DNA of 64,000 nt from Micromonospora deserti (GTDB lineage Bacteria > Actinomycetota > Actinomycetes > Mycobacteriales > Micromonosporaceae): NCBI RefSeq assembly GCF_003236335.1, contig NZ_POUB01000007.1, positions 1-64,000 on the forward strand, given 5' to 3'. Every line of letters starts with the position of its first letter. Position 1 is the stretch's first letter. Of the stretch, positions 15,116-57,662 are shown in pieces. Made by a program: the position numbers and the translations under genes. The notes below the pieces were generated by a model that did no database searches, had not been told where the DNA came from, and saw nothing but the letters and a program-made list of their open reading frames with translations.

Positions 15116-15145
15116 TTGACGCGTGTGAAGGTGAGCCCCTAGCGT
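15116..15145 (+). promoter_or_regulatory. promoter of the rhamnose operon
   Basis: TTGACG at 15116-15121, an 18-base spacer and TAGCGT at 15140-15145. The start site would fall near 15152, just upstream of operator 2. Confidence 0.5.
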
Positions 15146-15161
15146 CCTATCCCAAGTTGCA

Positions 15162-15173
15162 TGAAACGATTCA
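15162..15173. promoter_or_regulatory. LacI-type operator 2
   Basis: TGAAACGATTCA, matching the other site in ten of twelve positions and palindromic apart from the two central-right bases. It sits between the predicted transcription start and the ribosome binding site (AGAAGGGG) of the ABC ATPase gene, a classic roadblock position. Confidence 0.7.
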
Positions 15174-15185
15174 GAAGGGGGTCGG

Positions 15186-36864: not shown

Positions 36865-37113
36865 ATGAAGACGGCAGCTGACCTCGACGAGATGATCGCG
36901 AAATACGCGTCGGTGGGCTTCACCGACGCCACTCCCCTTCTGGAAGCCGGGCTGGAGTCGCTCTCCCTGCTCCGGCTCGCGGTCGAGACCGCCGCCGACG
37001 ACGACGCGGAGATCGACGCCACCCGCCTGGTAGACCTGCGCACCGTCGGCGACCTGAAGCAGTGGCTGAGCGAGCTGGCGGCGGTGGGCGCCGAGAGAGG
37101 AGACGCACGGTGA
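36865..37113 (+). CDS. free-standing carrier protein 1
   Basis: 82-residue acyl/peptidyl carrier protein. The phosphopantetheine attachment Ser32 is in AGLESLSLL, with Glu where Asp usually precedes the Ser. Four-helix pattern with VDLRTVGDLKQWL at the end. First gene of the long operon, overlapping the NRPS gene by four bases. It is probably loaded by one of the free-standing adenylation enzymes and modified by the Sfp-type transferase encoded at 51228. Confidence 0.82.
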   Translation: MKTAADLDEMIAKYASVGFTDATPLLEAGLESLSLLRLAVETAADDDAEIDATRLVDLRTVGDLKQWLSELAAVGAERGDAR

Positions 37114-40100
37114 CAACCACCGTCCAGACCGCGGATCCGGCGGCCGAGCCGGCGCGACTGCCGATCACCGAGTCCCAGAAGGGCCTGCTGGTGGTCAATG
37201 AACGGTCTCCCGGTCACGCCGTCTACAACCAACTGGTCCGCTTCGACATCGACCCGGCCATACCCGCCGAGACGGTCGAGCGGGCACTAGCCACGGTGGT
37301 CGCCGTCCAACCAGCCATGCGTCAGGTCTTCGGCATGCTGCCCGAGATGCACGCCCGGCTCACCCCGCCGCCGGCTCCCGATGCGTTACCCCTGGACCGG
37401 GTGACCACTCCGGCACGCGACTTCGAGGAGGCGGTCGACACGGTCCTGCGGCGCATCGGCCGGCCCGAGTTCGACCTGGCCGACGGGCCGGCGTACCGGT
37501 TCGCGACGGTTCGCAGCCTCGACGAGCCCCGTGCGTCGATCCTGATGTGCGACCACCACGTCATTCTCGACGGGGTCTCCATGGGGCCGCTGGTCCGCGA
37601 CCTTGAGGACGCGCTGTCCGGCCGGTTGACCGGCGACGAGATCCAACGACGCCGGATTGCCCGGGAGAAGGCGTTCGTCAAGGAACTCGCCGCCCAGAAC
37701 CGCAGCGCCGGCTCCGACCGGGTGGCCGAGCGATCGCGGGAGTGGGCGGCCCGGCTCCGCGAGGTCCCACCCCTGGTGTTGGCGCCGCTGCCCGGACGGC
37801 CCCGGCAGACCGAGTTCACCGGCGACCGGGTCGCCTGGCACCTCAGTGAGGCCGAGACGGCCGCGCTGGCCGAGACCTGCCGGCGACTGGAGATCTCGCC
37901 CTTCGTGTTCTTCTCCGGCATCTACGGCACGCTGCTGGCCCGGCACGGAAACGTCACCAGCGTGCTCGTGGGCAGCCCGTTCATGGCCCGCCGCACCATC
38001 GGCGCCTTCGACCTCGGCGGCTTCTTCGTCAACACCCTGCCGGTCACGGTGGAGGTGGAGTGGGGCCGCACCGTCGACGAGCACCTCGGCAAGGTGGTCC
38101 GGGACGCGGTCGACTTCTGCCGCGCGAACGTGGACGTCACCTTCAGCCGGCTGGTCGCCGACGTACGACCCGATCGGTCGAGCAACCGGAACCCGATGTT
38201 CTCGGCGATGCTCGCCATGCAGGACACCTTCGCCCCCGAGTCGGCCGGCGCGGTCCGGCGGGTCCTCGAACCGGGCAACGGCACCGCCAAGTTCGACCTC
38301 TGGCTCGGTGCCACCCCGGTCGACGGTCGCTGGCTGCTCGAACTCGAGTACGACCGGCAACTGATCGCCCCGGTGATCGCCGATGGGCTGCTCACCTCGT
38401 TGCGGGACGCGGTGCGCACGGCGGTCCGGGACGGCTCCCGCCGGCTAGCCGAGCTGTTCCACGACGCGTCGACCGCGGTCAGCGTCCGTTCCGACGGCTG
38501 GACCAGCCACCTCCCTGGGAACTCGCCGTGGGAATGGGTGGCGGCGGTGGGCCGGCGGCAGCCCGAGGCTCCGGCCATCGAGGATCCGCATCGGCGACTC
38601 GACTACCGCCAACTGCTGATTGAGGCGGAACGGATCGCTGCCGGCCTGGCCGCGCGCGGCGTGGGTGCCCGCGCCGTGGTCGGACTCGCGGCAACGACCC
38701 TGTGCGACACGGTCACCGCCATCCTCGGCATCCTGCGGCTCGGCGCCGCGTACCTGCCGCTGGAACCGGGCCAGCCGGCGGAACGACTCGCCTACCTGGT
38801 CCGGCGGGCCGGCTGCGACCTGATCGTCGGCGACGCGCTGGTCGCCGACGTACCCGCGGTGCCGGTGGCGGACCTGGCCGCCAGCACGGCGCCGGTGCCC
38901 GAACCCGGCACGGACCCGGACGCCCCGGTCTACGTGATGTTCACCTCCGGCTCCACCGGGCGACCGAAAGGCGTCCAGATGGGGCAGCGACCACTGGCCA
39001 ACCTCACCCGGTGGCAGATCGCGGCCCTCGACATGGACGCCGAGACCCGGTTCCTCCAGTACGCCCCGCTCGGCTTCGACGTCTCCTTTCAGGAGATCCT
39101 GCCGACCCTGGCGACCGGCGGCACGGTGGTCTCCCGCGACCCCATCGACCGGCGCATGCTCACCGCGATCCTCACCCGGATCGCGCAGACCGAGGTGACC
39201 CACGTCTACCTGCCGGCCACCGCGCTGCGCCCGCTGGTGCAGGCCGCCACGGCCCGGGGCACCCGGCTGCCCGCGCTGCGCTACCTGTGCGTCTCCGGGG
39301 AACAGCTGCTCGTCGACGACGAGATCCGTGACTTCTTCCGCGCCCACCCGCACGCCACCCTGGTCAACCTGTACGGACCGACGGAAACCCACGCGGTCAC
39401 CTCGTACCGGCTGTCCTACCGGGACCCGGTGTGGCCCACCCACGTGCCCATCGGCGTGCCCTACCCGCGGGTCCACGCATATCTGGTCGACGCCACCGGT
39501 CACCTCGCACCGCCCGGCGTCGTCGGTGAGCTCTTCCTGGGCGGGGAATGCCCGGCGGACGGCTACGTCAACGACCCGGAGACCACCGCCGCGCGGTTCG
39601 TGCCGGACCGGTTCTCCAACGATCCGGGCGCGGTCATGTACTGCACGGGCGACCTGGCGGTCCGCGACGATCGCGGCGACCTGGTCTTCCTGGGCCGGAT
39701 GGACACCCAGGTCAAGGTGCGCGGATACCGGATCGAACTCGGCGAGATCGAGGCGGTGGCGCTCCAGGTCGATGGGGTACGGCAGGCGGTGGCGGTGGTA
39801 CGCGGCGCCGGCGCCGACCGGGAGATCGGCTTGTTCGTCCGCCCGGATCCTGCGTCCACGGTCGACATCGAGCAGCTCCGGCAGCGGCTGGCCGCCGCGC
39901 TGCCGGTCTACATGCGGCCGGTCTGGATCTTCCCGATCGACCTGATCCCGACCTCGGCGCCGGGCAAGACCGATCGCGACGCGCTGCTGCGGATCGCCGA
40001 GGGCCGGTTGGCCGAGCAGCAGGCCGCCGACGCCGCCGTCGAGCCCGAGTACGTCGACGACCTGGAACGCGACCTCGCCATGCTGTGGGCCCGGGTGCTG

Positions 40101-40301
40101 GAGGTCGAGCAGATCTCGCCGGACCGACCACTGATGGAGTACGGCGCGCACTCGCTCAACATCTTCACCACCCTCGCCGAGGTGCAGGAACGGTACGGCG
40201 TCCCGGTGCCGCTCGCGGAATTCTTCGCCGCGCCGACGGTGACCGTCCTGGCCGGGCTGGTCCGGGCCGGCCGCGCGCCCGCGACGGAGCCGGCCCGATG
40301 A
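37110..40301 (+). CDS. NRPS module, condensation-adenylation-carrier (C-A-PCP)
   Basis: 1063 residues from GTG 37110. Condensation domain about 15-440 with the active-site motif HHVILDG (near 148-154). Adenylation domain about 465-960: A3 MFTSGSTGRPKG near 610, A5 NLYGPTE, A7 YCTGDLAVRDD, A8 RGYRIELGEIE near 870. Carrier domain about 985-1050 with attachment Ser in GAHSLN. Pocket residues aligned by eye read D-V-Q-Y-C-S-L-A-V-K. The D-V-Q start is shared with the proline code (DVQLIAHVVK), so a cyclic imino acid is conceivable but not established. It starts with a C domain and has no release domain, so it probably accepts an upstream carrier-bound acyl group. Confidence 0.93.
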   Translation: MTTTVQTADPAAEPARLPITESQKGLLVVNERSPGHAVYNQLVRFDIDPAIPAETVERALATVVAVQPAMRQVFGMLPEMHARLTPPPAPDALPLDRVTTPARDFEEAVDTVLRRIGRPEFDLADGPAYRFATVRSLDEPRASILMCDHHVILDGVSMGPLVRDLEDALSGRLTGDEIQRRRIAREKAFVKELAAQNRSAGSDRVAERSREWAARLREVPPLVLAPLPGRPRQTEFTGDRVAWHLSEAETAALAETCRRLEISPFVFFSGIYGTLLARHGNVTSVLVGSPFMARRTIGAFDLGGFFVNTLPVTVEVEWGRTVDEHLGKVVRDAVDFCRANVDVTFSRLVADVRPDRSSNRNPMFSAMLAMQDTFAPESAGAVRRVLEPGNGTAKFDLWLGATPVDGRWLLELEYDRQLIAPVIADGLLTSLRDAVRTAVRDGSRRLAELFHDASTAVSVRSDGWTSHLPGNSPWEWVAAVGRRQPEAPAIEDPHRRLDYRQLLIEAERIAAGLAARGVGARAVVGLAATTLCDTVTAILGILRLGAAYLPLEPGQPAERLAYLVRRAGCDLIVGDALVADVPAVPVADLAASTAPVPEPGTDPDAPVYVMFTSGSTGRPKGVQMGQRPLANLTRWQIAALDMDAETRFLQYAPLGFDVSFQEILPTLATGGTVVSRDPIDRRMLTAILTRIAQTEVTHVYLPATALRPLVQAATARGTRLPALRYLCVSGEQLLVDDEIRDFFRAHPHATLVNLYGPTETHAVTSYRLSYRDPVWPTHVPIGVPYPRVHAYLVDATGHLAPPGVVGELFLGGECPADGYVNDPETTAARFVPDRFSNDPGAVMYCTGDLAVRDDRGDLVFLGRMDTQVKVRGYRIELGEIEAVALQVDGVRQAVAVVRGAGADREIGLFVRPDPASTVDIEQLRQRLAAALPVYMRPVWIFPIDLIPTSAPGKTDRDALLRIAEGRLAEQQAADAAVEPEYVDDLERDLAMLWARVLEVEQISPDRPLMEYGAHSLNIFTTLAEVQERYGVPVPLAEFFAAPTVTVLAGLVRAGRAPATEPAR

Positions 40302-41023
40302 CGGCCACCACACCCGGCCGGTTGGTCACCCTGCTGCGTCGCGGCACCCGGCCGGTCTGCGTGCTGCTGCCTGGCGCCGGTGGCGGCCTGCAACCGTACT
40401 TCCAACTCGCCTCGACGATCGGCCACACCCACAACGTGGTGGCGGTCCGCGCGGCCGGCCTGCTGCCGGGCGAGGAACCGGAACGGACGATCGCCGAGAT
40501 GGCCGACGCGGCGGCTCGGGCACTGGACGCCGGCGATGCCATGCCGGCCGCCGTGTTCGGCTGGTCCCTGGGTGGATCGGTGGCCTGGGAACTCGCGGTC
40601 CGGCTCGCCGAGCGGGGACACCGTCCCGACGTCGTGCTGGTCGACGCCTCGCCGCTGCCGCGCCAGGCCGCGGCCGAGGAGGACGCCCGGATCCGCGAGA
40701 CGGTCATCGGGATGCTCGGGCCCCGACCCGACCCGGCCACCGTGGACCGGGTCCGTCGGGTTTTCGACACCCAGGTCGCCGCGCTCGCGGACTATCACGC
40801 CGAGCGGCCCTACCCCGGCCGGGTGCTGACGCTGTGGTGCGCCGACGACGAGTTCGACTTCAGGCCCGCCGCCGCGGCCCGGTGGCGGGAGCTCGCCCCG
40901 GACCTGCGTACCGGCAACCTCGACGCCGGCCACTTCGCCGTCTTCGAGCCGGCCCACCTGCCGCAACTGGTCGGGGCGGTCACCCCGTTCCTCGGCCGGA
41001 CCCCGGAGGCGGTGGCCGGATGA
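40298..41023 (+). CDS. type II thioesterase-like alpha/beta hydrolase
   Basis: 241 residues. Alpha/beta-hydrolase fold of the thioesterase family: oxyanion region LLPGAGGGLQPYF, nucleophile elbow GWSLGGSVAWEL, acid LTLWCADDEFDF and His in DAGHFAVFEPAH. Such proteins clear misprimed carriers or release products in trans. ATG start in a 4-bp overlap with the NRPS gene. It resembles the C-terminal TE domain of the 54459 protein. Confidence 0.88.
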   Translation: MTATTPGRLVTLLRRGTRPVCVLLPGAGGGLQPYFQLASTIGHTHNVVAVRAAGLLPGEEPERTIAEMADAAARALDAGDAMPAAVFGWSLGGSVAWELAVRLAERGHRPDVVLVDASPLPRQAAAEEDARIRETVIGMLGPRPDPATVDRVRRVFDTQVAALADYHAERPYPGRVLTLWCADDEFDFRPAAAARWRELAPDLRTGNLDAGHFAVFEPAHLPQLVGAVTPFLGRTPEAVAG

Positions 41024-41760
41024 GTCCGCTCGCGGTGGTCAGCGGCGGCACCCGGGGGATCGGCCTGACGCTCAGCCGGCGGCTGGTCAAGCTCGGATAC
41101 CGGGTCGTCGCGCCGTACCGCAGTGACGCCCAGGCCGCCGCATCGGCCGCGGCCGAACTCGGCGAATCCTTCCACCCGCTCCAGCTCGACGTCGCCGACG
41201 CCGACGCGGTACGGGCGGCGGCCGGCACGGTGCTCACCCGGCACGGGACCCCGACCGTGCTGGTCAACAACGCGGGCATCAACATCGACCGGCCTTTCCT
41301 GGAGCTGTCCGCACTGGACTGGCGGCGGGTGCTCGACACCAACCTGTCCGGTGCGTTCTTCCTCAGCCAGGCGTTCGCTCCGGCGATGCTGGCGGCGGAT
41401 CGGGACGCGACGATCGTCAACATCGGCGCGACCACCGGCATCCGGCCGCGCCGGAACGGGGCCAACTACTGCGCCAGCAAGGCCGGCCTGCTGCATCTCA
41501 CCAAGTGCCTCGCGGTCGAGCTGGCCCCGCGGATCCGGGTCAACTGCCTGATCCCCGGCATGACCGAGACCGACGAGCTGGTGACCCGGTTCCGGCTGGA
41601 CGACCCCGCGGCCCGGGCCGCCGTCGTCGCCGAGATCCCCCGCGGCCGGATCGGCACCACCGAGGAGATCGCCGACGCGCTGGAGTTCCTGATCGGACCG
41701 GCCAGCGGATACCTGACCGGGCAGAAGCTGATCGTGGATGGTGGGCAGTTCATGTGGTGA
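41020..41760 (+). CDS. FabG-like short-chain dehydrogenase with altered active site
   Basis: 246 residues. NAD(P)-binding motif SGGTRGIGLTLS, NNAG at about residue 86, and Tyr150/Lys154 in NYCASKAG. Closest in look to 3-oxoacyl-ACP reductases, so a carrier-bound ketone substrate is likely. The catalytic Ser expected 13 residues before the Tyr is Ala137 (NIGATTGIR), with Thr next to it. Activity may be reduced, or supported by that Thr. Coupled to both neighbours by 4-bp overlaps. Confidence 0.87.
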   Translation: MSPLAVVSGGTRGIGLTLSRRLVKLGYRVVAPYRSDAQAAASAAAELGESFHPLQLDVADADAVRAAAGTVLTRHGTPTVLVNNAGINIDRPFLELSALDWRRVLDTNLSGAFFLSQAFAPAMLAADRDATIVNIGATTGIRPRRNGANYCASKAGLLHLTKCLAVELAPRIRVNCLIPGMTETDELVTRFRLDDPAARAAVVAEIPRGRIGTTEEIADALEFLIGPASGYLTGQKLIVDGGQFMW

Positions 41761-43091
41761 CCGACGTCGACGACATCCTGACCGGCGTGACGACGGCGCG
41801 AGCCGCGCTACCGCCGCCCGGCGACGCTCGCTACGACCGGTACTGCGCCGTACTCGCCGCGCACCTGACCCACTCCTGGGAAGACGTGCTGGCGGCCAAC
41901 GCCGTCGACGTGGGCCGGGCCGTCGCCGCCGGCCTGGGTGCCGACCTAGTCGATCGGTTGGCGCTGCACAAGCGCCACCTGGCGACCCTGGTCGGCCTGA
42001 TCGATCGGACGCGGGCGGCACTGCCGGCGGTGACCGCGCCAGGTCCGGCGCACCGGGCTGACAACGGCACCACCCGGCGACGGCTGCCCAAGCCGTTCGG
42101 CGTCGCGTTGATGATCTACGAGGCCCGGCCGACGGTGACCGTGGAGGGCGCCCTGCTTCCGGTGGCGGTCGGCAACGCGGCGGTGCTCCGTGGTGGCGCG
42201 GAGATCGCGGCCACCAACCAGGCCCTGGTCGCCGTGGTCGACCGGGCGCTCGCCGACGCCGAACTGCCCGACGGCACCGTCGCCATCGTCACCGACCCCG
42301 ACCGCCGGGTGGTTCGAGCGCTGCTGAAGCGGCCGGACGCGATCGACGTGCTGATCCCCCGGGGCAGCCCGTCCCTGATCGACTACTGCCGGACCAGCTC
42401 CACCATCCCGGTCATCGCCAGCGGCGGCGGCGTCAACCACCTGTACGTCGACCGCAGCGCCGACCTGGATCTCGCCGCGCGGATCGCGCTGGACAGCAAA
42501 CTCGGTGAGCCCACCGCGTGCAACACGCTGGAACTGGTGCTGGCCCACACCGAGGTGGCCCGGGAACTCACCCGGACGCTGCTGCGCACCGGTGCCGGAC
42601 TGGCCGAGCCGTGGCTGCTGCGGGTCGATCCCCGACTGGTGGCCGCCAGCACGTCGGTGGCCCGGCCCGCCGCCCCGTCCGGACCCGACGCCGCCCCGGC
42701 GGCCAGACCGACCACCACGCCGGTGGTCGAACTCACCGCCGCCGACGACGGCCGGGAGTTCCTCGAACGGTCGATCGGCATCCGGCCGGTGGCCGGCCTG
42801 GACGAGGCGGTGGACCACATCCGCCGGTTCGGCTCCGGCCACACGGAGGGTGTGGTGGCGACCGACCGAGCGGTCGTCGACGCGTTCCTGGCCCGGGTGG
42901 ACGCCGCCGCGCTGGTGGTCAACGGGTCGCTGCGCCTGCACGACGGACCCACCATGGGGTTGGGTCCGGAGCTGTCCATCAGCACCGGCCGGTTGCACGT
43001 CCGCGGGCCAGTCGACCTGTCCGCGCTACTCACCTACAGCTGGGTGATCGAGGCGGACGGCACGCTGCGTGGCGAGGGGGCGGCGTCATGA
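41757..43091 (+). CDS. ProA-like gamma-glutamyl phosphate reductase / acyl reductase homologue
   Basis: 444 residues from GTG 41757. Aldehyde dehydrogenase superfamily, ProA branch: GVALMIYEARPTVTVEGALL, VLIPRGSPSLIDY, IPVIASGGGVNHLYVD, and the catalytic Cys255 in PTACNTLEL. C-terminal DGPTMGLGPELSISTGRLHVRGP matches ProA. Primary ProA makes glutamate semialdehyde for proline. A cluster copy may supply glutamate semialdehyde or pyrroline-5-carboxylate, or reduce a carrier-bound acyl group (inference). An Ala/Pro-rich insertion sits at about residues 300-325. It contains no glutamate-kinase domain. Confidence 0.87.
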   Translation: MTDVDDILTGVTTARAALPPPGDARYDRYCAVLAAHLTHSWEDVLAANAVDVGRAVAAGLGADLVDRLALHKRHLATLVGLIDRTRAALPAVTAPGPAHRADNGTTRRRLPKPFGVALMIYEARPTVTVEGALLPVAVGNAAVLRGGAEIAATNQALVAVVDRALADAELPDGTVAIVTDPDRRVVRALLKRPDAIDVLIPRGSPSLIDYCRTSSTIPVIASGGGVNHLYVDRSADLDLAARIALDSKLGEPTACNTLELVLAHTEVARELTRTLLRTGAGLAEPWLLRVDPRLVAASTSVARPAAPSGPDAAPAARPTTTPVVELTAADDGREFLERSIGIRPVAGLDEAVDHIRRFGSGHTEGVVATDRAVVDAFLARVDAAALVVNGSLRLHDGPTMGLGPELSISTGRLHVRGPVDLSALLTYSWVIEADGTLRGEGAAS

Positions 43092-43357
43092 CCAACCGAA
43101 CCCAAGTCACCGAGGCGGTCAAGCGGCTCGTTGTCCGCGAGTCCCGGCTCAGCGTGAGCCCAACCGCGGTCGCCGACGACGAGCCGCTCAACGGCGCGTT
43201 GCTGCGGGTCAACTCGCTGGGCTTCCTCGGCATGCTCGTGCAGCTCGAGGACGAACTGGACCTCACCCTGCCGGACGACCTCTTCGCCGGGCGGGTCTTC
43301 ACCACCGTCGCCGACCTGGTCGACGTGGTCATGGACGTGACCAAGGAGGAGACGTGA
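43088..43357 (+). CDS. free-standing carrier protein 2
   Basis: 89 residues with the attachment Ser43 in LRVNSLGFLGM (Asn replacing the usual Asp). Followed by the typical helix LVQLEDELDLTLPDDLF and FTTVADLVDVV. Overlaps ProA-like and TrpB2-like genes by four bases on either side, which suggests that the substrate of one of these enzymes is bound to it. Inference only. Confidence 0.8.
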   Translation: MTNRTQVTEAVKRLVVRESRLSVSPTAVADDEPLNGALLRVNSLGFLGMLVQLEDELDLTLPDDLFAGRVFTTVADLVDVVMDVTKEET

Positions 43358-44694
43358 CCGAGGCACCACGAGCCTGGCGCAGCGTCCTGCCGCACCTCGG
43401 GTACGACCTGCCCGTCGACCTGACACCGGAGCAGGGCGCAGGCCCGGTGACCGCCACCCTGCCGCTCGAGCTGATCAGGCAGAGCGTGTCCCAACGGGAG
43501 TTCTGGCCCGTCCCGGAGCCGGTGGCCGAGCGGTACCGCGCGTTCCGCCCGGCACCGCTGTGGCGGGCCCGCCGCTTCGAGGCGGAGATCCAGGCCGCAG
43601 TGCCGATCTACGTCAAGTACGAGGGCGGCAACATCTCCGGCAGCCACAAGTTCAACACCGCGCTGGCCCAGGCGTACTACTACCACCGGGCCGGCTTCCG
43701 TGAGCTGGTGACCGGCACCGGTGCCGGCCAGTGGGGCAGCGCTTTGGCCGCCGCCTGCGCGGCGTTCGGCCTGGCCTGCACGGTGTTCATGGTCGGTGGC
43801 AGCCTGCGGGACAAGCCGTACCGGGGCAGTCTGATCCGGCTCTACGGCGCCGACCTGCACACCAGCCCCAGTCAACTGACCGCGCTCGGCCGCGACGCCA
43901 CCGGTAACCACCAGCAGGGCAACAGCCTCGCGCTGGCCATCGGTGAGGCCGTGGAATACGCCCGGACGGATCCGAAACGGGCGTTCTGCATTGGCAGCGG
44001 GGAGACGTACAGCATCCTGCACCAGTCGGTGATCGGGTTGGAGGCGATCGACCAGCTCGCCGCGCTCGGCGCCGAGGTGGACACGGTGGTCGGCTGCGTC
44101 GGCGCGGGCAGCAACTTCGGCGGCGTCGCGTTGCCGTTCTTCGCCGCCGCACGAGCTGGCGAACTGCCCCGACCGGCCACGCTGGTCGCCGCCGAGTCCA
44201 GCACCACGCCCAAACTGACCCGGGGCGTGTACGCGTACGACCACACCGACTCCACCGGCACCGGCCCGATGGAGGCGATGTACACCATCGGCAGCCGGTA
44301 CGCGATACCCCCGTCACACGCCGCCGGGCTGCGCTTCCACGGCGCGGCCAAGCTGATCTCCGCAATGCGGCACCGCGACCAGATCTCCGCGCTGGCGATC
44401 GGGCAACGGGAGGCGCTGTCGGCGGGACGTGTCTTCGCTACCAGTGAGCTGGTGTTGCCGGCGCCGGAGTCGGGGCACGCGCTCGCCGCCGCCGCCCGGG
44501 TCGCCGCCGGACAGGAACCCGATCTCGCCTCCCGGCACGGGGTGCTGGTCTGCGTCAGCGGGCACGGCCTGCTCGACCTGGCCGCCTACGACAAGCTCCT
44601 GGCCGGGCTCCCCGAGGACCAGCCGGCGGACCCGGAGGCGCTACGCGAAGCGACCGCGACGCTGCGCCCGGTCCATCCGATCGAAGGGGCATGA
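43354..44694 (+). CDS. TrpB2-like PLP-dependent synthase
   Basis: 446 residues from GTG 43354. It matches the tryptophan synthase beta-chain 2 (TrpB2) type as I recall it: RPAPLWRARRFE, NISGSHKFNTALAQAYYY with PLP Lys99, TGTGAGQWGSALAAACA, LHQSVIGLEA and GCVGAGSNFGG for the PLP phosphate. Such enzymes perform beta-replacement on serine through an aminoacrylate. No trpA or other Trp gene is near, and it lies between two carrier-protein genes. It probably makes an unusual beta-substituted amino acid, or acts on a carrier-bound substrate (inference). Divergent paralogue rather than housekeeping TrpB. Confidence 0.85.
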   Translation: MTEAPRAWRSVLPHLGYDLPVDLTPEQGAGPVTATLPLELIRQSVSQREFWPVPEPVAERYRAFRPAPLWRARRFEAEIQAAVPIYVKYEGGNISGSHKFNTALAQAYYYHRAGFRELVTGTGAGQWGSALAAACAAFGLACTVFMVGGSLRDKPYRGSLIRLYGADLHTSPSQLTALGRDATGNHQQGNSLALAIGEAVEYARTDPKRAFCIGSGETYSILHQSVIGLEAIDQLAALGAEVDTVVGCVGAGSNFGGVALPFFAAARAGELPRPATLVAAESSTTPKLTRGVYAYDHTDSTGTGPMEAMYTIGSRYAIPPSHAAGLRFHGAAKLISAMRHRDQISALAIGQREALSAGRVFATSELVLPAPESGHALAAAARVAAGQEPDLASRHGVLVCVSGHGLLDLAAYDKLLAGLPEDQPADPEALREATATLRPVHPIEGA

Positions 44695-44695
44695 C

Positions 44696-45943
44696 ATGCT
44701 CGTTGTACCACCGGTGCCGACCCGCAGCCGGGAGTGGACGCCGATCCTGGCCGGTCTTCGTGCCGACCTGCTGGACTGTCTGCAGGTGAACCTCGCCGCG
44801 CTGGCGGACCGGGCCTACCGGCCGGGGGCCCACCTGGCGTTCGGCGCCGCGCTGCGGTTCGACCCGGCCCCGGGACCGGCCGGTCCGCCGACCGTGGTCG
44901 CCGGGCCGGACCAGCGTCTGGCCGAGGCGGACGAGCTGCTCGGCCTGCGGGTCGACCAGCGGTGGGATGACGTGTCCGGCGCGCGGCTGCGGGAGCTGGT
45001 GACGCGCCGGGCACCGCTGTACGTGGTCGCCGACGCGTTCACCATGGGCTGGCTGCCCTACGCCGGCAACCAGCACATGGAGCACAGCTTCCTGCTCGTC
45101 GAGGGGGGCCAGACCTGCCTCGTGGTGGACGGCTACCACAACTCCACCCAGTGGGGCGACGTACGGCCCGGAGCCTGGCGGTTGTCCGCGGCGGAGTTCG
45201 ACGCCGCGGTGCCTCGGGCCAGCGCGATGACCATCACGGCGGTGGGCGCCCCGTCGCTGGACCGGGCGGTGGTCCTGCGCACGAACGCCGCCGTGCTGAG
45301 CAGGGCGACCAACCGGATCGAGGAGTACCTGTCTGCGGTCCGGGACCGGGCCGGTGAGCCTGAGGTGGCGAGCCAACTGGTCCTCGACGTGTGGCTGCTC
45401 GGCCGGTCCCGGGCGCTGCACGCCGCCTGGTTGGCCGCGCAGCCCGAACGGATCGGTGCGGCGGAGACCGCCGGTCAGGCCGAGTCCTGGCTCGCGCTGG
45501 CCGCGCAGAGCTACGTGACGATGCGGCGGGTCCGGCGCAACGGCGCGTTCCCCGCCGCCGTGCTCGACCAGCTCGCCGAGCTGCTGCGCGGCGACGTGGC
45601 GCTGGCCCGGCGGCTGGCCGGCGACGACGCCCCGCCCGTGGCCACCGGCCCGGCGTCGCCACCACCGGAGCCGGTCGACCCGGACCAGATCCGTGCCGTG
45701 CTCGTCGCCGAGGTCGGCGCGGTGTTCGGGGTCGGCGCCGAGGTGTTGGCCACCGGGCCCGCGCTGCGGACGCTTCCCGGCTTCAACTCGTTCCGGCTGG
45801 TGGAGGTGATCGAACGGGTGGAGACCCGGTTGGGGGTCGAGGTGGACCCGGACCACCTCACCGGGACGGCCCTGCACGACCTGGACTCGCTGCACGCCCT
45901 GTTCCGCCGGGCCCGGCAGTCCGCCCGGATGGCGGCGGGCTGA
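44696..45943 (+). CDS. BtrH-like cysteine acyltransferase/peptidase-fold protein fused to a carrier domain
   Basis: 415 residues from ATG 44696. The first ~330 residues resemble the N-terminal domain family of BtrH, which transfers an aminoacyl group from a carrier protein in butirosin synthesis. A possible papain-like triad is Cys28 (LLDCLQVN), His130 (HMEHSFLLV) and Asp145 (VVDGYHN). The C-terminal ~80 residues are a carrier domain with attachment Ser365 in LPGFNSFRLVEV. Its triad spacing (102 and 15 residues) nearly equals that of the 51929 protein. The fusion suggests acyl transfer to or from its own carrier. Family assignment rests on motif pattern only. Confidence 0.62.
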   Translation: MLVVPPVPTRSREWTPILAGLRADLLDCLQVNLAALADRAYRPGAHLAFGAALRFDPAPGPAGPPTVVAGPDQRLAEADELLGLRVDQRWDDVSGARLRELVTRRAPLYVVADAFTMGWLPYAGNQHMEHSFLLVEGGQTCLVVDGYHNSTQWGDVRPGAWRLSAAEFDAAVPRASAMTITAVGAPSLDRAVVLRTNAAVLSRATNRIEEYLSAVRDRAGEPEVASQLVLDVWLLGRSRALHAAWLAAQPERIGAAETAGQAESWLALAAQSYVTMRRVRRNGAFPAAVLDQLAELLRGDVALARRLAGDDAPPVATGPASPPPEPVDPDQIRAVLVAEVGAVFGVGAEVLATGPALRTLPGFNSFRLVEVIERVETRLGVEVDPDHLTGTALHDLDSLHALFRRARQSARMAAG

Positions 45944-47442
45944 TGAGCGACCTACTGCACGACCTGCTGGACCGCTCGGCGACGACCTGGCCGGAATCGA
46001 CCGCGGTCGGCCACGACGGGGAGACGCTCAGCTACGCCGCGGTTGCCGCGGCCAGCCGCCGGCTCGCCGGCTGGCTCATCGGGCGGGGTGTCCGGCGGGG
46101 CGACCGGGTGGTCGTCTGCCTGCCCAACGACCTGCTGCTGCCGGCGCTGCTGTACGCGTGTTCTCGGATCGGCGCCGTGTTCAGCGTGGTCAACGACCAG
46201 TCACCGGCGGTCACCCTGGCGCACGTGCTGACCGACGCGGAGCCGATGCTGCTGGTCAGCGACTCGCCGGTGGCGGCTGCCGTCGCCGTCGACCACCAGA
46301 CCCCGACAGCCGGGCTGGCGGAGCTGCGCCGGGCCGGGCGGGGCGGGCCCCACGAACGAATCGCCACGACGCCGCTGGCGGTCGACCCAGTCTGCCTGAT
46401 CTACACCTCGGGCAGCACCGGCATGCCCAAGGCGGTGGTCTCCACCCACGCCCAGGTGGTCTTCGCGGCCGGGGCCATCGCCTCGCAGCTCGGCTACCGG
46501 CCCGACGACGTGGTCTACTGCGCGGTGCCGCTGTCCTTCGACTACGGCTTGTACCAGATCCTCCTCAGCACCCTGGCCGGCGCCCGGCTTCAGCTCGGCC
46601 CGCCGGGGGTGGCCGGCCCGATGCTGGCCCGCGAGCTGGTCGCGCACCGGGCCACCGTGCTGCCGGCAGTGCCCGCGCTAGCCCGCGGCCTGGCCAGGAT
46701 GCTGTCCCGCCCCGGTGCGACGGCGCCGGCGCTGCGGTTGCTCACCAACACCGGCGCTGTGATGCCTCCGGAGGTGCTGCGGGAACTGCGCTCCCGGATC
46801 CCGACGCTGCGGGTGCAGCTGATGTTCGGGTTGACCGAGTGCAAGCGGGCCGCAATCATGCCGGCCGACGAGGACCAGCGCCGACCCGGGGCGAGCGGGC
46901 GGGCGCTGCCCGGCACGGAGATCCTCATCGTGGACGAGGACGGTGCGTCGCTGCCGGCGGGCACGGTCGGCGAGATCGTGGTACGCGGGCCGCACGTGAT
47001 GGCAGGTTACTGGCGCCGGCCCGCGCTCACCGCGCAGCGGTTCCCCCGGGTCGAGGGCCTCTTCCCCCAGCTGCGTACCGGTGACTACGGATGGCTCGAC
47101 GACGACGGCTACCTCCACTTCGTGGGGCGGCGGGACGACATCTACAAGGAGCGGGGCACCCGGGTCAGCGTCACCGAGGTGGAGGCGGCGGCGTACCGCG
47201 TACCCGGGGTCGAGGCGGCCGCCGTGCTGCCCCCGCGGGCCGAGGACGCCTCCGACTCGGCCACCCTGTTCGTGGTCAGCGACCTGACCACGCAGCAGGT
47301 GCTGCACGCGCTGCGCGCCGAGCTCGACGAGATCAAGATGCCGCGTACCTGCCTGGTCCTGCCGGAGATCCCGTTGACCCGCAACGGGAAGGTCGACCGG
47401 GCGGCGCTGTACCAGGTGTGGCAGGAGCGGGCCCATGTCTAG
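45943..47442 (+). CDS. AMP-forming acyl/aminoacyl ligase
   Basis: 499 residues of the adenylate-forming superfamily, acyl-CoA synthetase-like rather than a classic NRPS A domain. Motifs: LIYTSGSTGMPKAVV, MFGLTECKRAAIM, RTGDYGWLDDDGYLHFVGRRDDIYK and the catalytic Lys in LTRNGKVDRAAL. It directly precedes a PLP decarboxylase and a carrier protein gene. The trio matches VinN-VinO-VinL of macrolactam starter synthesis, where the ligase attaches an acidic amino acid to the carrier through its side-chain carboxyl. The start overlaps the previous stop (TGATG). Confidence 0.87.
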   Translation: MSDLLHDLLDRSATTWPESTAVGHDGETLSYAAVAAASRRLAGWLIGRGVRRGDRVVVCLPNDLLLPALLYACSRIGAVFSVVNDQSPAVTLAHVLTDAEPMLLVSDSPVAAAVAVDHQTPTAGLAELRRAGRGGPHERIATTPLAVDPVCLIYTSGSTGMPKAVVSTHAQVVFAAGAIASQLGYRPDDVVYCAVPLSFDYGLYQILLSTLAGARLQLGPPGVAGPMLARELVAHRATVLPAVPALARGLARMLSRPGATAPALRLLTNTGAVMPPEVLRELRSRIPTLRVQLMFGLTECKRAAIMPADEDQRRPGASGRALPGTEILIVDEDGASLPAGTVGEIVVRGPHVMAGYWRRPALTAQRFPRVEGLFPQLRTGDYGWLDDDGYLHFVGRRDDIYKERGTRVSVTEVEAAAYRVPGVEAAAVLPPRAEDASDSATLFVVSDLTTQQVLHALRAELDEIKMPRTCLVLPEIPLTRNGKVDRAALYQVWQERAHV

Positions 47443-48685
47443 CCTCGCCGAGCTGTTCGGACGACCGGACGCCCCGCCGACCCCCGCGTACCTGTACGAC
47501 CTCGACGAGCTGGCCCGGTCGCACGCCGCGCTGCGGGCCGCGCTGCCGCGGGCCGCCGAGCTGTTCTATTCGCTCAAGGCCAACCCGCACCCGGCCGTGC
47601 TGGCCGCTCTCGCCACGGCCGGTTGCCAGGCGGAGGTGTGCTCACCGGGCGAGCTGCGGGCCGCCCTGGCGGCCGGGTACGCGCCGGCGGCGATGCTCTA
47701 CACCGGCCCCGGCAAGCGCGACGTCGACGTCGACGAGGCGGTCCGGGCCGGGGTCCGGCTGTTCTCCATCGACTCGCCGTACGGGCTGGACCAGCTCGAC
47801 CGGATCGCCGCCGAGTACGGCACCGAGGTCCGGGCGCTGGTCCGGATCAACGACGACACCCCGAGCCCCGGACAGGGGCTGACCATGACCGGGGTGGCGT
47901 CGCAGTTCGGCGCGGACGTCTGGTGGGTGCTGGACCGGCCCGAGCTGTTCGGTCCGCGCCGGCACGTGCGCCCGGTCGGCTTCCACCTCTACACCGGCAG
48001 CAACCTGACCGGCGAGGACGCGCTGATGGCACAGTTCAACCAGTCCGTCGCCACGGTACGGCGGCTGGCTGCGGCGACCGGCGTCGAGCCGGAACTGCTG
48101 GACCTGGGCGGTGGGTTCGGCGCGCCGTTCGCCCGCGCCGGTGCCCGTCCGGAGTACCCGAAACTGGCGGACCGGCTGGTCCGGCTGCTCGACGACGCGT
48201 TCCCGGGCTGGCCGGAGAGCGGACCGGCGGTCGCCTTCGAGTCCGGCCGCCACCTGGTGGGCACCTGCGGCACCCTCGTCACCCGGGTGCTCGACGTCAA
48301 ACGGTCCCAGGGCTCCACAGTGGTCGTGCTGGAGTCCGGGATCCACCACCTGGGTGGCATGTCCGGGCTGCGCCGGCTCCCCCCGATCGTGCCGGACGTG
48401 GTCGCGCTGGCGGGGCCGGCCGGCCCCGCCCGCCCCGGCACGATCGTCGCCGGACCGCTCTGCACCCCGCTGGACACCTGGGCCCGCTCCGCCACGCTCG
48501 TCGAGCTGACGCCGGGTCAGCTGGTCGCCGTGCCCAACGTCGGCGCGTACGGCCTGTACGCCAGCCTGGTCGCCTTCCTGGCGCACCCCATGCCGGTCGA
48601 GGTCACCGTCACCGGCGGCCGGGTCACCGGAATGACCCGCCTGGAACTCACCCGGCACTCCACCAACGGCAGCGTTAGGGGTTGA
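47435..48685 (+). CDS. carrier-dependent PLP amino-acid decarboxylase (BtrK/VinO type)
   Basis: 416 residues. Fold-III decarboxylase of the ornithine/diaminopimelate family: PLP Lys48 in FYSLKANPHP, GFHLYTGSN, LDLGGGFGAPF, and the C-terminal partner motif GPLCTPLDTW. BtrK (butirosin) and VinO (vicenistatin) are relatives that decarboxylate amino acids attached to a carrier protein. Position between a ligase and a carrier gene supports the same reaction here, giving a beta- or gamma-aminoacyl carrier intermediate (inference). ATG 47435 overlaps the ligase stop by eight bases. Confidence 0.85.
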   Translation: MSSLAELFGRPDAPPTPAYLYDLDELARSHAALRAALPRAAELFYSLKANPHPAVLAALATAGCQAEVCSPGELRAALAAGYAPAAMLYTGPGKRDVDVDEAVRAGVRLFSIDSPYGLDQLDRIAAEYGTEVRALVRINDDTPSPGQGLTMTGVASQFGADVWWVLDRPELFGPRRHVRPVGFHLYTGSNLTGEDALMAQFNQSVATVRRLAAATGVEPELLDLGGGFGAPFARAGARPEYPKLADRLVRLLDDAFPGWPESGPAVAFESGRHLVGTCGTLVTRVLDVKRSQGSTVVVLESGIHHLGGMSGLRRLPPIVPDVVALAGPAGPARPGTIVAGPLCTPLDTWARSATLVELTPGQLVAVPNVGAYGLYASLVAFLAHPMPVEVTVTGGRVTGMTRLELTRHSTNGSVRG

Positions 48686-48933
48686 CCGCATTGGACACCG
48701 GATTCCCGGATCTCCTCAAACCGTTCCTCAAGTACGCCGGAACCGAGCCCATCACGCCCGACGCCTCGCTGACCGACCTGGGCCTGGACTCCATGCGCGC
48801 GATCGAGCTGCTGTTCGCGATCGAGGATACCTATGGCGTATCCATGCCGGACGAGTTGCTCACCAACCACACCTTCGCCACGGCGGGCAGCCTGTGGGCG
48901 ACCATCGAGTCGCTGCGTGGACGGGCGGCATGA
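48682..48933 (+). CDS. free-standing carrier protein 3
   Basis: 83 residues from TTG 48682 (TTG 48691 is an alternative). Canonical attachment motif LGLDSMRAIEL with Ser37, the only discrete carrier in the cluster with the standard Asp-Ser pair. Likely carries the amino acid loaded by the 45943 ligase for decarboxylation and for the two acyl-CoA-dehydrogenase-like proteins encoded directly downstream. Confidence 0.85.
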   Translation: MTALDTGFPDLLKPFLKYAGTEPITPDASLTDLGLDSMRAIELLFAIEDTYGVSMPDELLTNHTFATAGSLWATIESLRGRAA

Positions 48934-50099
48934 CCGGTAAACCGCCCCTCGTCGGCCGGTACGAGTCGGCGGTCGCCGAGGTGCTGGCCGTCACCGCCGA
49001 GTACGCCGGACACTCCGACGAGGCCGCCGAGTTCCCGACGGCGGCGCTGGATGCCATGCGGGCGACCGGGCTGCTGGGCCTGCTCGTGCCGGCGGAGCAC
49101 GGCGGGGGCGGCGGCACGCTCACCGACCTGGTCGAGGTGACCCTGCGGCTGGCCCGGGTCGACATGTCGGTGGCGCTGATCTTCGCCATGCACTGCCAGC
49201 AGGTGGCGGCTGTGGTCCGGCATGCCGACGGGCCGCTGGCCGCCCGGCTGCTGCCCGTGCTGGGCAAGGGCAACGTCTACCTCGCCTCGGTGACCACGGA
49301 ACGCGGCACCGGCGGGCACCTGCTCAGTTCGGAGTCGGTGGTGGGGCGGACGGCCGGGATGCTGACGATCGACCGGGACGCCCCGATCGTCACCGGCGGC
49401 CGGTACGCCGACGCTTTCCTCATCACCGCGCTGGCGCCGCAGGCCACCTCGCCGAGCCAGGTGTCGCTGGTGTACGCGCGCCGGGACCAGCTCACCGTGG
49501 AGGTACGCGGCGGCTGGCAGCCGTTGGGCATGCGGGCCACGGACAGCGTGCCGATGCGGCTGACCGGGCAGGTGCCGGCCGACCAGGTGATCGGCGAACC
49601 GGGGCGGTTCCGGGAGATCGTCGCTCCGACGTTCGGCCCGTTGGCGCACATCGGCTGGTCGGCCGCGTGGCTCGGCGCGGCCACCGGCGCGCTGTCCCGG
49701 ATCCTGCACCACATTCGGGATGCCGGGCGCAACCAGTTCGACCCGTCCTCGGAGCTGCTGCTGACCCGGCTGGCCCGGCTCCGGGGCCGGCTGGACCTGG
49801 TGAACGCTGTGCTCCGGCACACCGTCGCGACGATGGAGAGCGGGTCCGACCGCAGCGATCCGGCCGTGCAGATGCTGGTCAACTCGTTGAAGGTGCACGC
49901 CGCCGAGCAGTGCTTCGCCGCGGCCGACGAGATGGTCGAGCTGGTCGGGCTGCGCCACGGATACCTGAAGTCGTCCCCGTTGCACCTGGAGCGGGTCTTC
50001 CGGGACCTCCGTTCGGCGTCGCTGAACTACGCCAACGACCGCCTGTTGCTGGTCAACGGGGCACTGGTGTTGCGGGATCGGCAGGTGCGCCTTGCCTGA
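48930..50099 (+). CDS. acyl-CoA dehydrogenase-like flavoprotein 1
   Basis: 389 residues from ATG 48930. Acyl-CoA-dehydrogenase fold: N-terminal helical domain (LDAMRATGLLGLLVPAEHGG), middle beta domain (VTTERGTGGHLLSSE, GGWQPLGMRATDS) and a C-terminal helix bundle ending near FRDLRSASLNYANDR. The ending looks more like flavin-dependent monooxygenases of this fold (DszC/KijD3 type) than like dehydrogenases with the catalytic Glu. It may therefore desaturate, or hydroxylate with the flavin reductase encoded at 60239. A carrier-bound substrate is likely given the adjacent carrier gene. Confidence 0.83.
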   Translation: MTGKPPLVGRYESAVAEVLAVTAEYAGHSDEAAEFPTAALDAMRATGLLGLLVPAEHGGGGGTLTDLVEVTLRLARVDMSVALIFAMHCQQVAAVVRHADGPLAARLLPVLGKGNVYLASVTTERGTGGHLLSSESVVGRTAGMLTIDRDAPIVTGGRYADAFLITALAPQATSPSQVSLVYARRDQLTVEVRGGWQPLGMRATDSVPMRLTGQVPADQVIGEPGRFREIVAPTFGPLAHIGWSAAWLGAATGALSRILHHIRDAGRNQFDPSSELLLTRLARLRGRLDLVNAVLRHTVATMESGSDRSDPAVQMLVNSLKVHAAEQCFAAADEMVELVGLRHGYLKSSPLHLERVFRDLRSASLNYANDRLLLVNGALVLRDRQVRLA

Positions 50100-51231
50100 G
50101 CCGCGACCGTCGCCGGCGGTGGACTCGCCAGCCGGCACCGCCCAGCACCCGCCGTCCTCGGACGACGTCACCGCGCGCACCATCCGGGCGGTGGAGTCGG
50201 CGGAGCGGCCCGGGGACCCGCGCGCGGTGTGGCGGGCGCTCGGCGCGCACGGCCTGCTGACCGACCTGCGGGTCGGGCACCTGCCGGGACTCCTGGCCGC
50301 CCTCGACCGGTCGTGCCCGGTCGGGGTGGTGCTGTCGGTCTGCGTCCAGGTGGCCAGCGCGCTGCCGGTGCTGCGGGAACACGTCGACGCGGCGGCCGAC
50401 GGGCCGGTCACCGCCGCCTTCCGGGCAGCGGTCCAGGGCCGGTCGACGCTCGCGTTGGCGGCGACCGACCGGGACGGTGCCGGCTCGGACCTGATGAGCC
50501 TCGGCACCACGGCGCGGATCGACGGCCACGCGGTGCTGTTGAACGGCGGCAAGCGCTGGATCACCAACGCCCAGACCGCGGACCACGCGCTGGTGCTGGC
50601 CCGGCACCGTCCGGAGCGGCACTTCACCAGCTTCGTCTGGGTGCTGGTGCCGACCGACGCCCCCGGGGTCCGGGTGACCGGAACGGACGGCCCGCTCACC
50701 GGCACCGGCCTGGGCGACCTGCACTTCGACCACGTGCGCCTGGACCGGTCGCACCTGGTCGGCCGGCCCGGCCGCGGCATGGTCAGCTTCGCCCGGCACA
50801 TCGCCACCGAGCGGTACGCCGGTGCGGTGTGGGCGGCGGCGATGTGCCGGCGGGTGCTCGCCGACACGCATTGCCGGCTCACCGGGCGTCCGCTCGGCGC
50901 CGGGTCGGCCTGGGACAACGCGGCGATCCGGGAACGGTTCGCCCGGTGCCTGGTGGAGACCTGGCGGATCGAGACGGCCTGTGCGGCGTACCGGTCCACC
51001 GCCGAGCCGCTGGCGGTCAGCATGCTGCTCAAGGTGTCGGTGGCGGACAGCCTCGACCTGGTGCTCAGCGAGTGCGCCCGGCTGGTCGGGGCCGAGGCGT
51101 ACCTCGACGGCGGGCTGGCGCAGCTGCGAGCGGCGGCCGGGATGTTCGCCACCGCCGGCGGGGCAACCGGGGCGATGCTCGCCGGCATCGCCGACCACGC
51201 CCCCGACCTGCCCGGGGGTCGACCGTGGTGA
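50092..51231 (+). CDS. acyl-CoA dehydrogenase-like flavoprotein 2
   Basis: 379 residues from TTG 50092 overlapping the previous gene by eight bases. Middle-domain signature LNGGKRWITNAQTADHALVLAR and LHFDHVRLDRSHLVG, MVSFARHIATERYAG are typical. The N-terminal domain is Pro-rich and short. In the C-terminal region, where dehydrogenases have the YxGTxE motif with the catalytic Glu, this protein reads ATAGGATGAML, so the base appears to be missing. It could be a partner subunit of protein 1 or catalyse another flavin reaction. Confidence 0.82.
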   Translation: MPEPRPSPAVDSPAGTAQHPPSSDDVTARTIRAVESAERPGDPRAVWRALGAHGLLTDLRVGHLPGLLAALDRSCPVGVVLSVCVQVASALPVLREHVDAAADGPVTAAFRAAVQGRSTLALAATDRDGAGSDLMSLGTTARIDGHAVLLNGGKRWITNAQTADHALVLARHRPERHFTSFVWVLVPTDAPGVRVTGTDGPLTGTGLGDLHFDHVRLDRSHLVGRPGRGMVSFARHIATERYAGAVWAAAMCRRVLADTHCRLTGRPLGAGSAWDNAAIRERFARCLVETWRIETACAAYRSTAEPLAVSMLLKVSVADSLDLVLSECARLVGAEAYLDGGLAQLRAAAGMFATAGGATGAMLAGIADHAPDLPGGRPW

Positions 51232-51932
51232 GCGCGGCGCGGCTGGCCGCCGCCGGGCGGGGCCGGGGCGTCGGGCGCGGCATGCTGCGCCTGATCGTCG
51301 GTCGCCGGATCCGAGTGGCGGTCGCCGACCAGCGGCTGCTCGTCCGGTGGGCATCGACCCCACCGGCCGAACTCCGCGGACCGGCCGCGCTGGCCGGGCG
51401 ATGGGATCCGGCCCAGCGGGGGGCCTGGTCGGTCGAGCGGCTGGCGGCCCGGGCGCTGCTACGGATGCTGCTGGTCGAGGAGCTGGGGCCGGCGGCCGGC
51501 GACACGCCGCTGGCCGCCTATCCCACCGGGCAGCCGTACCTGCCGGACTGGCCACGGATCGGGGTCAGCCTCTCCCACGACGCCGGTACGGTGGCCGCCG
51601 CGCTGGGGCTGGGCGTGCCGGTCGGGGTGGACGTGCAGACCCCCGTACCGGCGCCACCGGCGCTGCTGCGACGTTGCTGCGCCCCGCCGGTCCAGGCCGC
51701 GCTGGACCGGCTGCCGGCGGCGGTCCGGGACCGCGAGTTCGCCTGGATCTGGTCGGTGCAGGAGGCGTGCGTGAAGGCCACCGGCGCCGGGCTTGCCGGC
51801 GCCCCGTGGACCGTCCCGGTGCCGTACCGGCGGCGCGCCGGCCGGTGGCGCGACCTGCGGTGGCGGAGCCTGCGCGGGCGCAGCCGGGTGCCGGTGAGCG
51901 TCGCCTGGCGACTCCGTGGAGGGGCGCGATGA
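51228..51932 (+). CDS. Sfp-type 4'-phosphopantetheinyl transferase
   Basis: 234 residues from GTG 51228 (GTG 51225 also possible). Activates carrier proteins by attaching phosphopantetheine from CoA. Family motifs: GVSLSHDAGTVAAAL, the metal-binding GVDVQTP and WSVQEACVKATGAGL; the usual Lys before Glu is Gln here. Arg-rich N- and C-termini. A dedicated transferase fits a cluster with several carrier sites (three free-standing carriers, one fused to the BtrH-like protein and two NRPS carriers). Confidence 0.9.
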   Translation: MSAARLAAAGRGRGVGRGMLRLIVGRRIRVAVADQRLLVRWASTPPAELRGPAALAGRWDPAQRGAWSVERLAARALLRMLLVEELGPAAGDTPLAAYPTGQPYLPDWPRIGVSLSHDAGTVAAALGLGVPVGVDVQTPVPAPPALLRRCCAPPVQAALDRLPAAVRDREFAWIWSVQEACVKATGAGLAGAPWTVPVPYRRRAGRWRDLRWRSLRGRSRVPVSVAWRLRGGAR

Positions 51933-52873: not shown

Positions 52874-52883
52874 AGGACGTGTG

Positions 52884-57657: not shown

Positions 57658-57662
57658 TCGGC

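Follow-up and report, generated by a model that had tools for sequence, protein, structure and literature searches.

A carrier-linked TrpB2-like enzyme without the catalytic glutamate in a secondary-metabolite gene cluster of Micromonospora deserti

The 64,000-nucleotide stretch of Micromonospora deserti analysed here (positions 1 to 64,000 of contig NZ_POUB01000007.1, hereafter the window) encodes a TrpB2-like enzyme dependent on pyridoxal 5'-phosphate (PLP), which lacks the catalytic glutamate of tryptophan synthase β chains and whose gene overlaps that of an acyl carrier protein, named ACP1. Judged from sequence comparisons, this protein is almost certainly not a tryptophan synthase, and it likely performs a β-replacement with a nucleophile other than indole. 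The evidence is evenly poised as to whether this nucleophile sits on, or comes from, the carrier; the fuller reading, in which the enzyme would join a free β-hydroxy amino acid to a carrier-held or carrier-delivered non-indole nucleophile along the pathway proposed below, is tentative and stands slightly short of an even chance. The genes at the centre of the argument are the following:

41754..43091, plus strand: ProA-like reductase (glutamate-5-semialdehyde dehydrogenase family), with the Cys of the ProA Cys motif
43088..43357, plus strand: ACP1 carrier (PF00550), its 3' end overlapping the start of the TrpB2-like gene
43354..44694, plus strand: TrpB2-like PLP enzyme of 446 residues, with Lys99 and with Gly121 at the catalytic Glu site (Salmonella E109)
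44696..45943, plus strand: BtrH/CcbD/CtaG-like amide synthase fused to a carrier (ACP3), starting with ATG

The TrpB2-like gene starts with a GTG and overlaps the 3' end of the carrier gene at 43088-43357 by four bases, a gene overlap that suggests coupling of ACP1 with the enzyme. Its product scores 503.7 bits with NF009057 (cut-off 366) and 410.3 bits with TIGR01415 (under the cut-off of 518.85), carries its PLP lysine at residue 99 in the motif GSHK, and finds its nearest solved structures in 6hul, 4qys and 6hte (286-307 bits; tryptophan synthase beta chain 1 or 2). In quick trees it falls with TrpB2 and not with TrpB1, the two TrpB1 rows being separate at support 100. Coordinates, the NF009057 score and the GSHK lysine agree with the initial annotation, which had described a TrpB2-type enzyme with PLP Lys99 between a carrier gene and an amide-synthase-carrier fusion; its remark that no other Trp genes lie nearby was also borne out, as no Trp-pathway family occurs among the genes scanned for them, between 33.2 and 59.8 kb. 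The substrate carboxylate is bound in TrpB by the TGAGQ loop. Both this loop and the PLP lysine are invariant in nine aligned sequences, five of which are only 44-45% identical to the window protein, and the 117 invariant positions to which they belong speak, at such a distance, for retained chemistry.

What the initial annotation overlooked is the loss of the catalytic glutamate: a defining catalytic feature of tryptophan synthase is missing here. All 43 close relatives have Gly at the site aligned with Glu109 of Salmonella TrpB, and all 23 other TrpB2s have Glu there. A class-wide draw, from whose 64 matches 29 loci were fetched, gave Glu in 27 and Gly in two window-type loci, and 30 Streptomyces loci from 40 matches comprised 19 with Gly (two of them places already counted), nine with Glu and two with Asp; Ala stands at the position in L020, a locus of genome G031. 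In a quick tree of 58 rows from which the trait column had been removed, all 33 Gly/Ala rows form one clade (SH-aLRT 97) that requires one change, so that the phylogeny called for in the initial annotation places the window protein outside the Glu-type TrpB2s; 12 near-identical housekeeping rows had been left out of an earlier tree. The two Asp-bearing genes, L191 (TrpB2 at 8608-10023) and L192 (8548-9912), lie among genes that are alike in the two genomes, including one that resembles a nonribosomal peptide synthetase (NRPS). A long-branched protein of Actinokineospora auranticolor (L070:9989-11251) combines Gly at the Glu site with loss of the PLP lysine (GGHQ), and is a possible pseudo-enzyme.

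Elsewhere in the genome the canonical TrpB model finds two genes above its cut-off of 392, at 585 and 518 bits, and it gives the window protein 110 bits. The 518-bit copy lies on contig C222 (L102) and the other on C233; a separate ProA (512 bits) is also encoded outside the window cluster. A genome without another TrpB had been named in advance as one part of the outcome that would undo the proposed specialised role, and the presence of the two canonical genes leaves that role standing. A coumermycin TrpB-like enzyme was also considered as the possible closest kin; in the genome of locus L047 only two TrpB-type genes were matched, the window-type one and another that lies, by eye, between trpC- and trpA-like genes.

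With regard to distribution, a match at E<=1e-60 was obtained in 31 of 160 genomes of the genus, the own genome included; 11 of these (own included) have a relative of 68-100% identity, the other matches are 43-46% identical, and both sorts occur in one genome (G134). Scanning genome contigs yielded 58 loci; relatives of 65-84% identity account for 32 of them (L039-L069 and L076) and come from Salinispora, Actinoplanes, Dactylosporangium, Kutzneria, Saccharothrix, Amycolatopsis, Streptomyces, Nocardiopsis and others. From an even draw of 394 genomes of the class, 64 match at E<=1e-95, and identities of at least 70% are confined to the own genome, G298 and G419. The Glu-less subfamily is spread over several actinobacterial families. 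L015 and Salinispora fenicalii L039 encode identical proteins.

The loss of the glutamate goes together with a carrier gene. Within flanks of about 1.5 kb and on the same strand, a carrier gene is present at 31 of 31 Gly/Ala loci versus 0 of 56 Glu/Asp loci (Fisher p 3e-24, a value that ignores kinship, as the trait arose once and many rows are close kin). These 87 TrpB2-type loci exclude the duplicates L178 and L181 and include a few with short flanks at contig ends, and the hidden Markov model used to find carriers was built from 10 of them, several from loci later counted. Carrier, TrpB2-like gene and amide synthase occur together in 33 of 33 relatives' loci, as well as beside 10 other close relatives in the genus, a recurrence which indicates that the arrangement is not due to chance.

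A sister branch of Glu-less enzymes gives an indication of what the carrier might hold. In L184 and L187 the gene order is carrier, TrpB-like enzyme, dehydrogenase and adenylation domain; against the model of the prolyl-PCP dehydrogenase RedW their dehydrogenases reach 394 and 385 bits, against that of PigA 386 and 389 bits, all below the cut-offs, that of L184 reaches 352 bits with the prolyl-ACP dehydrogenase 4irn, and the adenylation code, D-LFYLALVC, fits the stand-alone L-Pro consensus L(L/F)YLALVC (PMC3874040). L185 and L188 likewise contain a TrpB-like gene, a dehydrogenase, an adenylation domain (code D-LLYSALVC) and a carrier, the L185 dehydrogenase scoring 361 bits with PigA and that of L188 aligning with it as an almost identical sequence. 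Of ten sister-branch loci, five were read, and the proline set is present in four of these five stretches. Since a proline-derived or pyrrole group cannot form a Schiff base with PLP, the simplest reading for the sister branch is that the carrier probably holds the nucleophile and serine is free; the tethered group would be a pyrrole taking the place of indole. Genes similar to SbnA and SbnB (2,3-diaminopropionate family models, below cut-off) were also seen near the TrpB-like gene of L184, at 14923-17000.

The window cluster is of the NRPS type; further genes in it are these:

33187..34740, minus strand: g27, stand-alone adenylation domain, code D-P-F-F-L-A-L-V-C, agreeing at 6 of 8 positions with the above L-Pro consensus (PMC3874040)
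36865..37113, plus strand: g29, free-standing carrier (PF00550)
37110..40301, plus strand: g30, NRPS module with condensation, adenylation and thiolation domains (C-A-T), code D-V-Q-Y-C-S-L-A-V
41035..41760, plus strand: g32, short-chain dehydrogenase (SDR)
45943..47442, plus strand: VinN-like amino-acid-carrier ligase, best PDB match 3wvn (VinN, 384 bits)
47435..48685, plus strand: BtrK/VinO-like PLP decarboxylase, best PDB match BtrK 2j66 (170 bits)
48682..48933, plus strand: ACP2, free carrier (PF00550, 45 bits), 4 kb downstream of the TrpB2-like gene
48930..50099, plus strand: g39, flavoprotein of acyl-CoA-dehydrogenase fold with neither dehydrogenase Glu position, monooxygenase-like or an atypical oxidase
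50119..51231, plus strand: g40, acyl-carrier dehydrogenase-like, with the Glu position of RedW-like enzymes
51225..51932, plus strand: 4'-phosphopantetheinyl transferase (PPTase; PF01648)
51929..52873, plus strand: second BtrH/CcbD/CtaG-like amide synthase, C14, H115 and D131 invariant in 27 of 27
60239..60769, plus strand: flavin reductase (PF01613), a possible partner of g39

When 33 window-type loci are compared, ACP1, the TrpB2-like gene and the amide synthase are present in all 33, the ProA-like gene in 32 (the sole locus without it being cut by a contig end), ACP2 and g39 in 31, g40 in 30, the second amide synthase and the PPTase in 29, and VinN and VinO, as well as the SDR, in 24; presence is defined by bit-score thresholds of our own setting, and contig ends truncate L041, L045, L052 and L053. 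The ProA-like protein itself passes NF001221 (339 bits, cut-off 289) and not TIGR00407 (293 bits, cut-off 317), and the ProA Cys motif was found in 30 of 35 loci examined and additionally in L113, L058 and L069 giving no line. All 23 loci that have the g30 module (22 by a match of at least 500 bits, plus L049) show the identical code DVQYCSLAV. It matches the consensus VQ(Y/F)IAHVV of modular L-Pro domains at 4 of 8 positions; branched-proline domains deviate from that consensus at three to six (PMC3874040). Neither SDR nor g30 module was seen within the flanks of L057, L058, L059, L061, L065, L068 and L069; the exceptions to this pairing are L048, with the module and no SDR, and L052 and L054, with the SDR and no module. 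Genome G031 has a compact cluster of ProA-like gene, ACP1, TrpB2-like gene, g39, ACP2, VinO, VinN, two amide synthases, ACP3, an adenylation domain and a flavin reductase, with no C-A-T module in the stretch read.

From the contiguous order SDR, ProA, ACP1 and TrpB2 we infer a pathway in which an acyl group on ACP1 and serine would be combined to a γ-glutamyl-like thioester. The TrpB2-like enzyme would form the PLP-aminoacrylate from free L-serine or O-phospho-L-serine; the carrier, which by gene adjacency would be ACP1, would supply the nucleophile, and C-C bond formation with the acyl group on ACP1 would yield a 4-substituted γ-glutamyl-type thioester. Such a thioester as substrate would explain why a ProA was recruited: its reduction by the ProA-like enzyme would give a semialdehyde that closes to a pyrroline, and the SDR would reduce this ring to a 4-substituted proline, to be loaded by the g30 adenylation domain. 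The linkage of ProA, ACP1 and TrpB2, together with the fixed proline-like g30 code, suggests this product, which is nevertheless to be regarded as doubtful for the window pathway. A further-reaching account, namely that loss of the glutamate let TrpB2 alkylate a carrier-tethered carbon nucleophile with free serine, the tethered group being a pyrrole in the sister branch (an indole mimic derived from carrier-bound proline) and ProA-like release leading to a 4-substituted proline in the window branch, would amount to an assembly-line route to proline that imitates glutamate-semialdehyde chemistry on a carrier, and is in its entirety rather unlikely.

Several observations weigh against this pathway or limit its reach. 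The loss of the glutamate is a single evolutionary event on the tree, so the 31 carrier-bearing loci are not 31 independent cases, and the tree itself is a quick one without bootstrap that gave a long-branch warning at L020. A Glu-type locus, L193, has a carrier 2.25 kb from its TrpB2, beyond the counted flanks, and is one of four Glu/Asp stretches read more widely; it may reflect an early stage in the evolution of carrier coupling, or have nothing to do with it. This TrpB2 lies in a different cluster (L193:8430-12331), with an adenylation domain, the carrier and a dehydrogenase-like gene. In the carrier tree, ACP1, ACP2, ACP3 and g29 separate into four groups with support of 95-99; of ACP1, ACP2 and ACP3 a clear member each is present in G031, where ACP1 scores 127 bits versus at most 18 for other types. 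Six sister-branch carriers, however, join none of the four groups. By profile score ACP1 is best for five of these six, mostly by narrow margins, the L111 carrier fits ACP3 best, and a two-residue insertion shared with ACP1 is absent from it. Grouping of the sister-branch carriers with ACP1 was considered and dropped, being shown by neither the FastTree drawing nor the supported tree; because these carriers are not placed as ACP1 orthologues, the estimates for a carrier-held nucleophile and for a 4-substituted proline were lowered slightly. In L186 and L111 (the latter on a plasmid) the place of the proline set is taken by a PF13454 flavoprotein and a different AMP ligase, and none of the five sister-branch stretches read showed a ProA-like gene. 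The window cluster contains six carrier domains, and nothing ties one acyl group or one loading enzyme to ACP1. The codes of the stand-alone adenylation domains differ from cluster to cluster, so that the group on ACP1 cannot be read from the proline-like code of g27; g27 was discarded as the ACP1 loader for this variability and because the matching adenylation domain adjoins ACP3 in G031 and lies one gene off, with g39 between, in L061 and G128. Finally, 10 of the 33 window-type loci show no DVQYCSLAV module in their flanks, so a proline product need not be universal.

Among the alternatives, the one closest in kind retains carrier-coupled β-replacement and exchanges the nucleophile for an oxidised β-amino acid: VinN- and VinO-like enzymes would provide β-alanyl-ACP2, g39 and the flavin reductase would convert it into an enamine, an oxime, a nitro compound or a released isoxazolin-5-one, and TrpB2 would couple this to serine. 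G031, which retains g39, ACP2, VinN, VinO, the TrpB2-like gene and the flavin reductase but, as far as the cluster was read, no C-A-T module, is consistent with this proposal, as are the properties of g39: its usual catalytic Glu is absent in 40 of 40 locus rows (some being the same place twice), the second Glu position, common to g40 and RedW-like enzymes and presumably catalytic there, is absent too, and among PDB entries a DszC-type monooxygenase matches it best (70 bits), with true dehydrogenases only just behind. Three variants without VinN and VinO were read, of which L061 and G128 have aminotransferases and a KamA-family gene, some KamA members making β-amino acids, but L056 has neither in the open reading frames listed. 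Moreover, TrpB2 is retained where VinN and VinO are absent in eight untruncated window-type loci, and in G470, which has no TrpB2-like gene, g39-like, VinN and VinO genes adjoin one whose product looks, by eye, like a condensation-domain protein, as would be expected if the three make a separate dehydro-β-alanine unit (compare bolagladin, PMC7756342). On this evidence an oxidised β-amino acid is an unlikely partner, and coupling of an isoxazolin-5-one (giving a TAN-950-like β-isoxazolinonyl-alanine) was abandoned as the lead reading in view of the G470 set and of the proline-derived groups to which the sister branch points. Regarding these two side subjects, the KamA-family radical SAM genes lie at L061:5965-7281(-) and L115:2781-4094(+), the L061 gene, the one scanned, reaching 125 bits with TIGR00238, below cut-off; the G470 genes (L151/L152, G470:C3 ~67.6-73.8 kb) are accompanied by ABC-transporter-like genes and may belong to a dehydro-β-alanine (enamidonin-like) lipopeptide cluster.

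The remaining explanations depart further from a carrier-coupled reaction with free serine. The initial annotation had raised the possibility that serine itself is carrier-bound, so that the enzyme would form an aldimine with a seryl-S-carrier and carry out β-replacement or elimination on the carrier. The tight linkage to a carrier gene would fit, but the loop that binds the substrate carboxylate is invariant, the partner predicted in four of five sister-branch stretches is proline-derived and could not form an aldimine, and none of the three adenylation codes in the window looks like a serine code; this part of the earlier proposal is consequently disfavoured and quite improbable, while its other part, that the enzyme derives from TrpB2, is not the housekeeping one and belongs to a carrier-based pathway probably leading to a noncanonical amino acid, is upheld by the comparative evidence. 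Similarly, if loss of the glutamate left only aminoacrylate release or no activity at all, the protein would be a serine dehydratase or an inactive scaffold, as the additional loss of the PLP lysine in L070 might suggest; the 117 invariant positions make this very improbable. Lastly, a housekeeping or backup TrpB2 that drifted into the cluster would account for the NF009057 match above cut-off, and is contradicted by loss of the glutamate in 43 of 43 relatives, by the two canonical TrpB genes and by ACP1 and the amide synthase standing beside the gene in 33 of 33 loci and in 11 loci of the genus, which leaves it with hardly any probability.

TrpB is a favoured laboratory catalyst for non-canonical amino acids. 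Its residue E104, exchanged in one engineered variant, presumably occupies the same position as Salmonella Glu109. That variant, E104G, lacks a side chain described as essential for native reactivity and so resembles the window enzyme, but it is a laboratory product that performs a light-driven radical reaction on free substrates and gives D-configured products (PMC12135140). The engineered loss appears here as the natural, conserved state of a carrier-linked actinobacterial subfamily. With TrpB2 proper (TIGR01415/NF009057), for which dependence on O-phosphoserine has been reported (Busch et al. 2014, as cited in PMC11917138), the window enzyme shares the family profile, the PLP lysine and the carboxylate loop, and differs in having Gly for Glu, an adjoining carrier gene and a place in a secondary-metabolite cluster. 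A TrpB-like route to substituted prolines has already been proposed, in that DmgAA4 of demiguisin, compared with 'CourR1', was suggested in silico, as one of two scenarios, to be a tryptophan-synthase-like enzyme that converts L-Ser and oxaloacetate into a 4-substituted proline; the nucleophile there is oxaloacetate, and the accessible part of the article names no carrier or ProA step for that scenario (PMC11446937). No carrier-linked TrpB2 was recognised in the literature searched, which covered few subscription papers. If the carrier holds the nucleophile, delivery of the partner to a PLP β-replacement enzyme in this manner would be seemingly undescribed in that literature and would offer a handle for biocatalysis, and GTGAGQW beside a carrier gene would serve as a genome-mining marker for peptides with unknown building blocks.

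Other parts of the cluster also have known counterparts. VinN-like ligase, PLP decarboxylase and carrier together constitute a vicenistatin-type β-amino acid loading set, and the systems of vicenistatin (VinN/VinO/VinL) and bolagladin (BolO/BolN/BolC/BolQ, PMC7756342) have in common with the window a VinN-like ligase, a BtrK/VinO-like decarboxylase, a carrier and an acyl-CoA-dehydrogenase-like enzyme; unlike the window cluster, they are not described with a TrpB-like or ProA-like gene in the accessible parts of these sources. The amide synthase-ACP3 fusion was modelled with AlphaFold from an alternative start at 44714 as one large domain and a four-helix carrier-like domain (mean pLDDT 90.6), with AziU3/U2, CtaG and CcbD as top PDB fold matches in Foldseek. 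Its residues Cys22, His124 and Asp139 (numbered from the 44714 start) are invariant in 29 of 29 sequences and may constitute the catalytic triad. The fold of CcbD, CtaG and AziU3 is common to both BtrH-like proteins, which have the invariant Cys/His/Asp; identities over the Foldseek alignments are 8-19%, and one window copy differs in having its own fused carrier. The earlier designation of the downstream gene as BtrH-like is therefore plausible at the level of fold, the only Pfam BtrH_N match being weak and falling on the paralogue at 51929-52873 (E 0.17).

The cluster is completed by the following genes:

31242-33056, minus strand: SARP-like regulator with BTAD domain, left cluster edge, likely pathway activator
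34737..36044, minus strand: g28, major facilitator superfamily transporter
40322..41023, plus strand: g31, type II thioesterase (PF00975)
52881..54449, plus strand: g43, stand-alone adenylation domain, code D-G-L-L-S-G-C-V-V
54459..56888, plus strand: NRPS with condensation, thiolation and thioesterase domains (C-T-TE)
56911-57657, 57654-58889 and 58886-59806, after the cluster core: BesD-like halogenase (PF23169, 329 bits), argininosuccinate synthase and formyltransferase

The BesD-like gene is present in 5 of 28 relatives' genomes searched.

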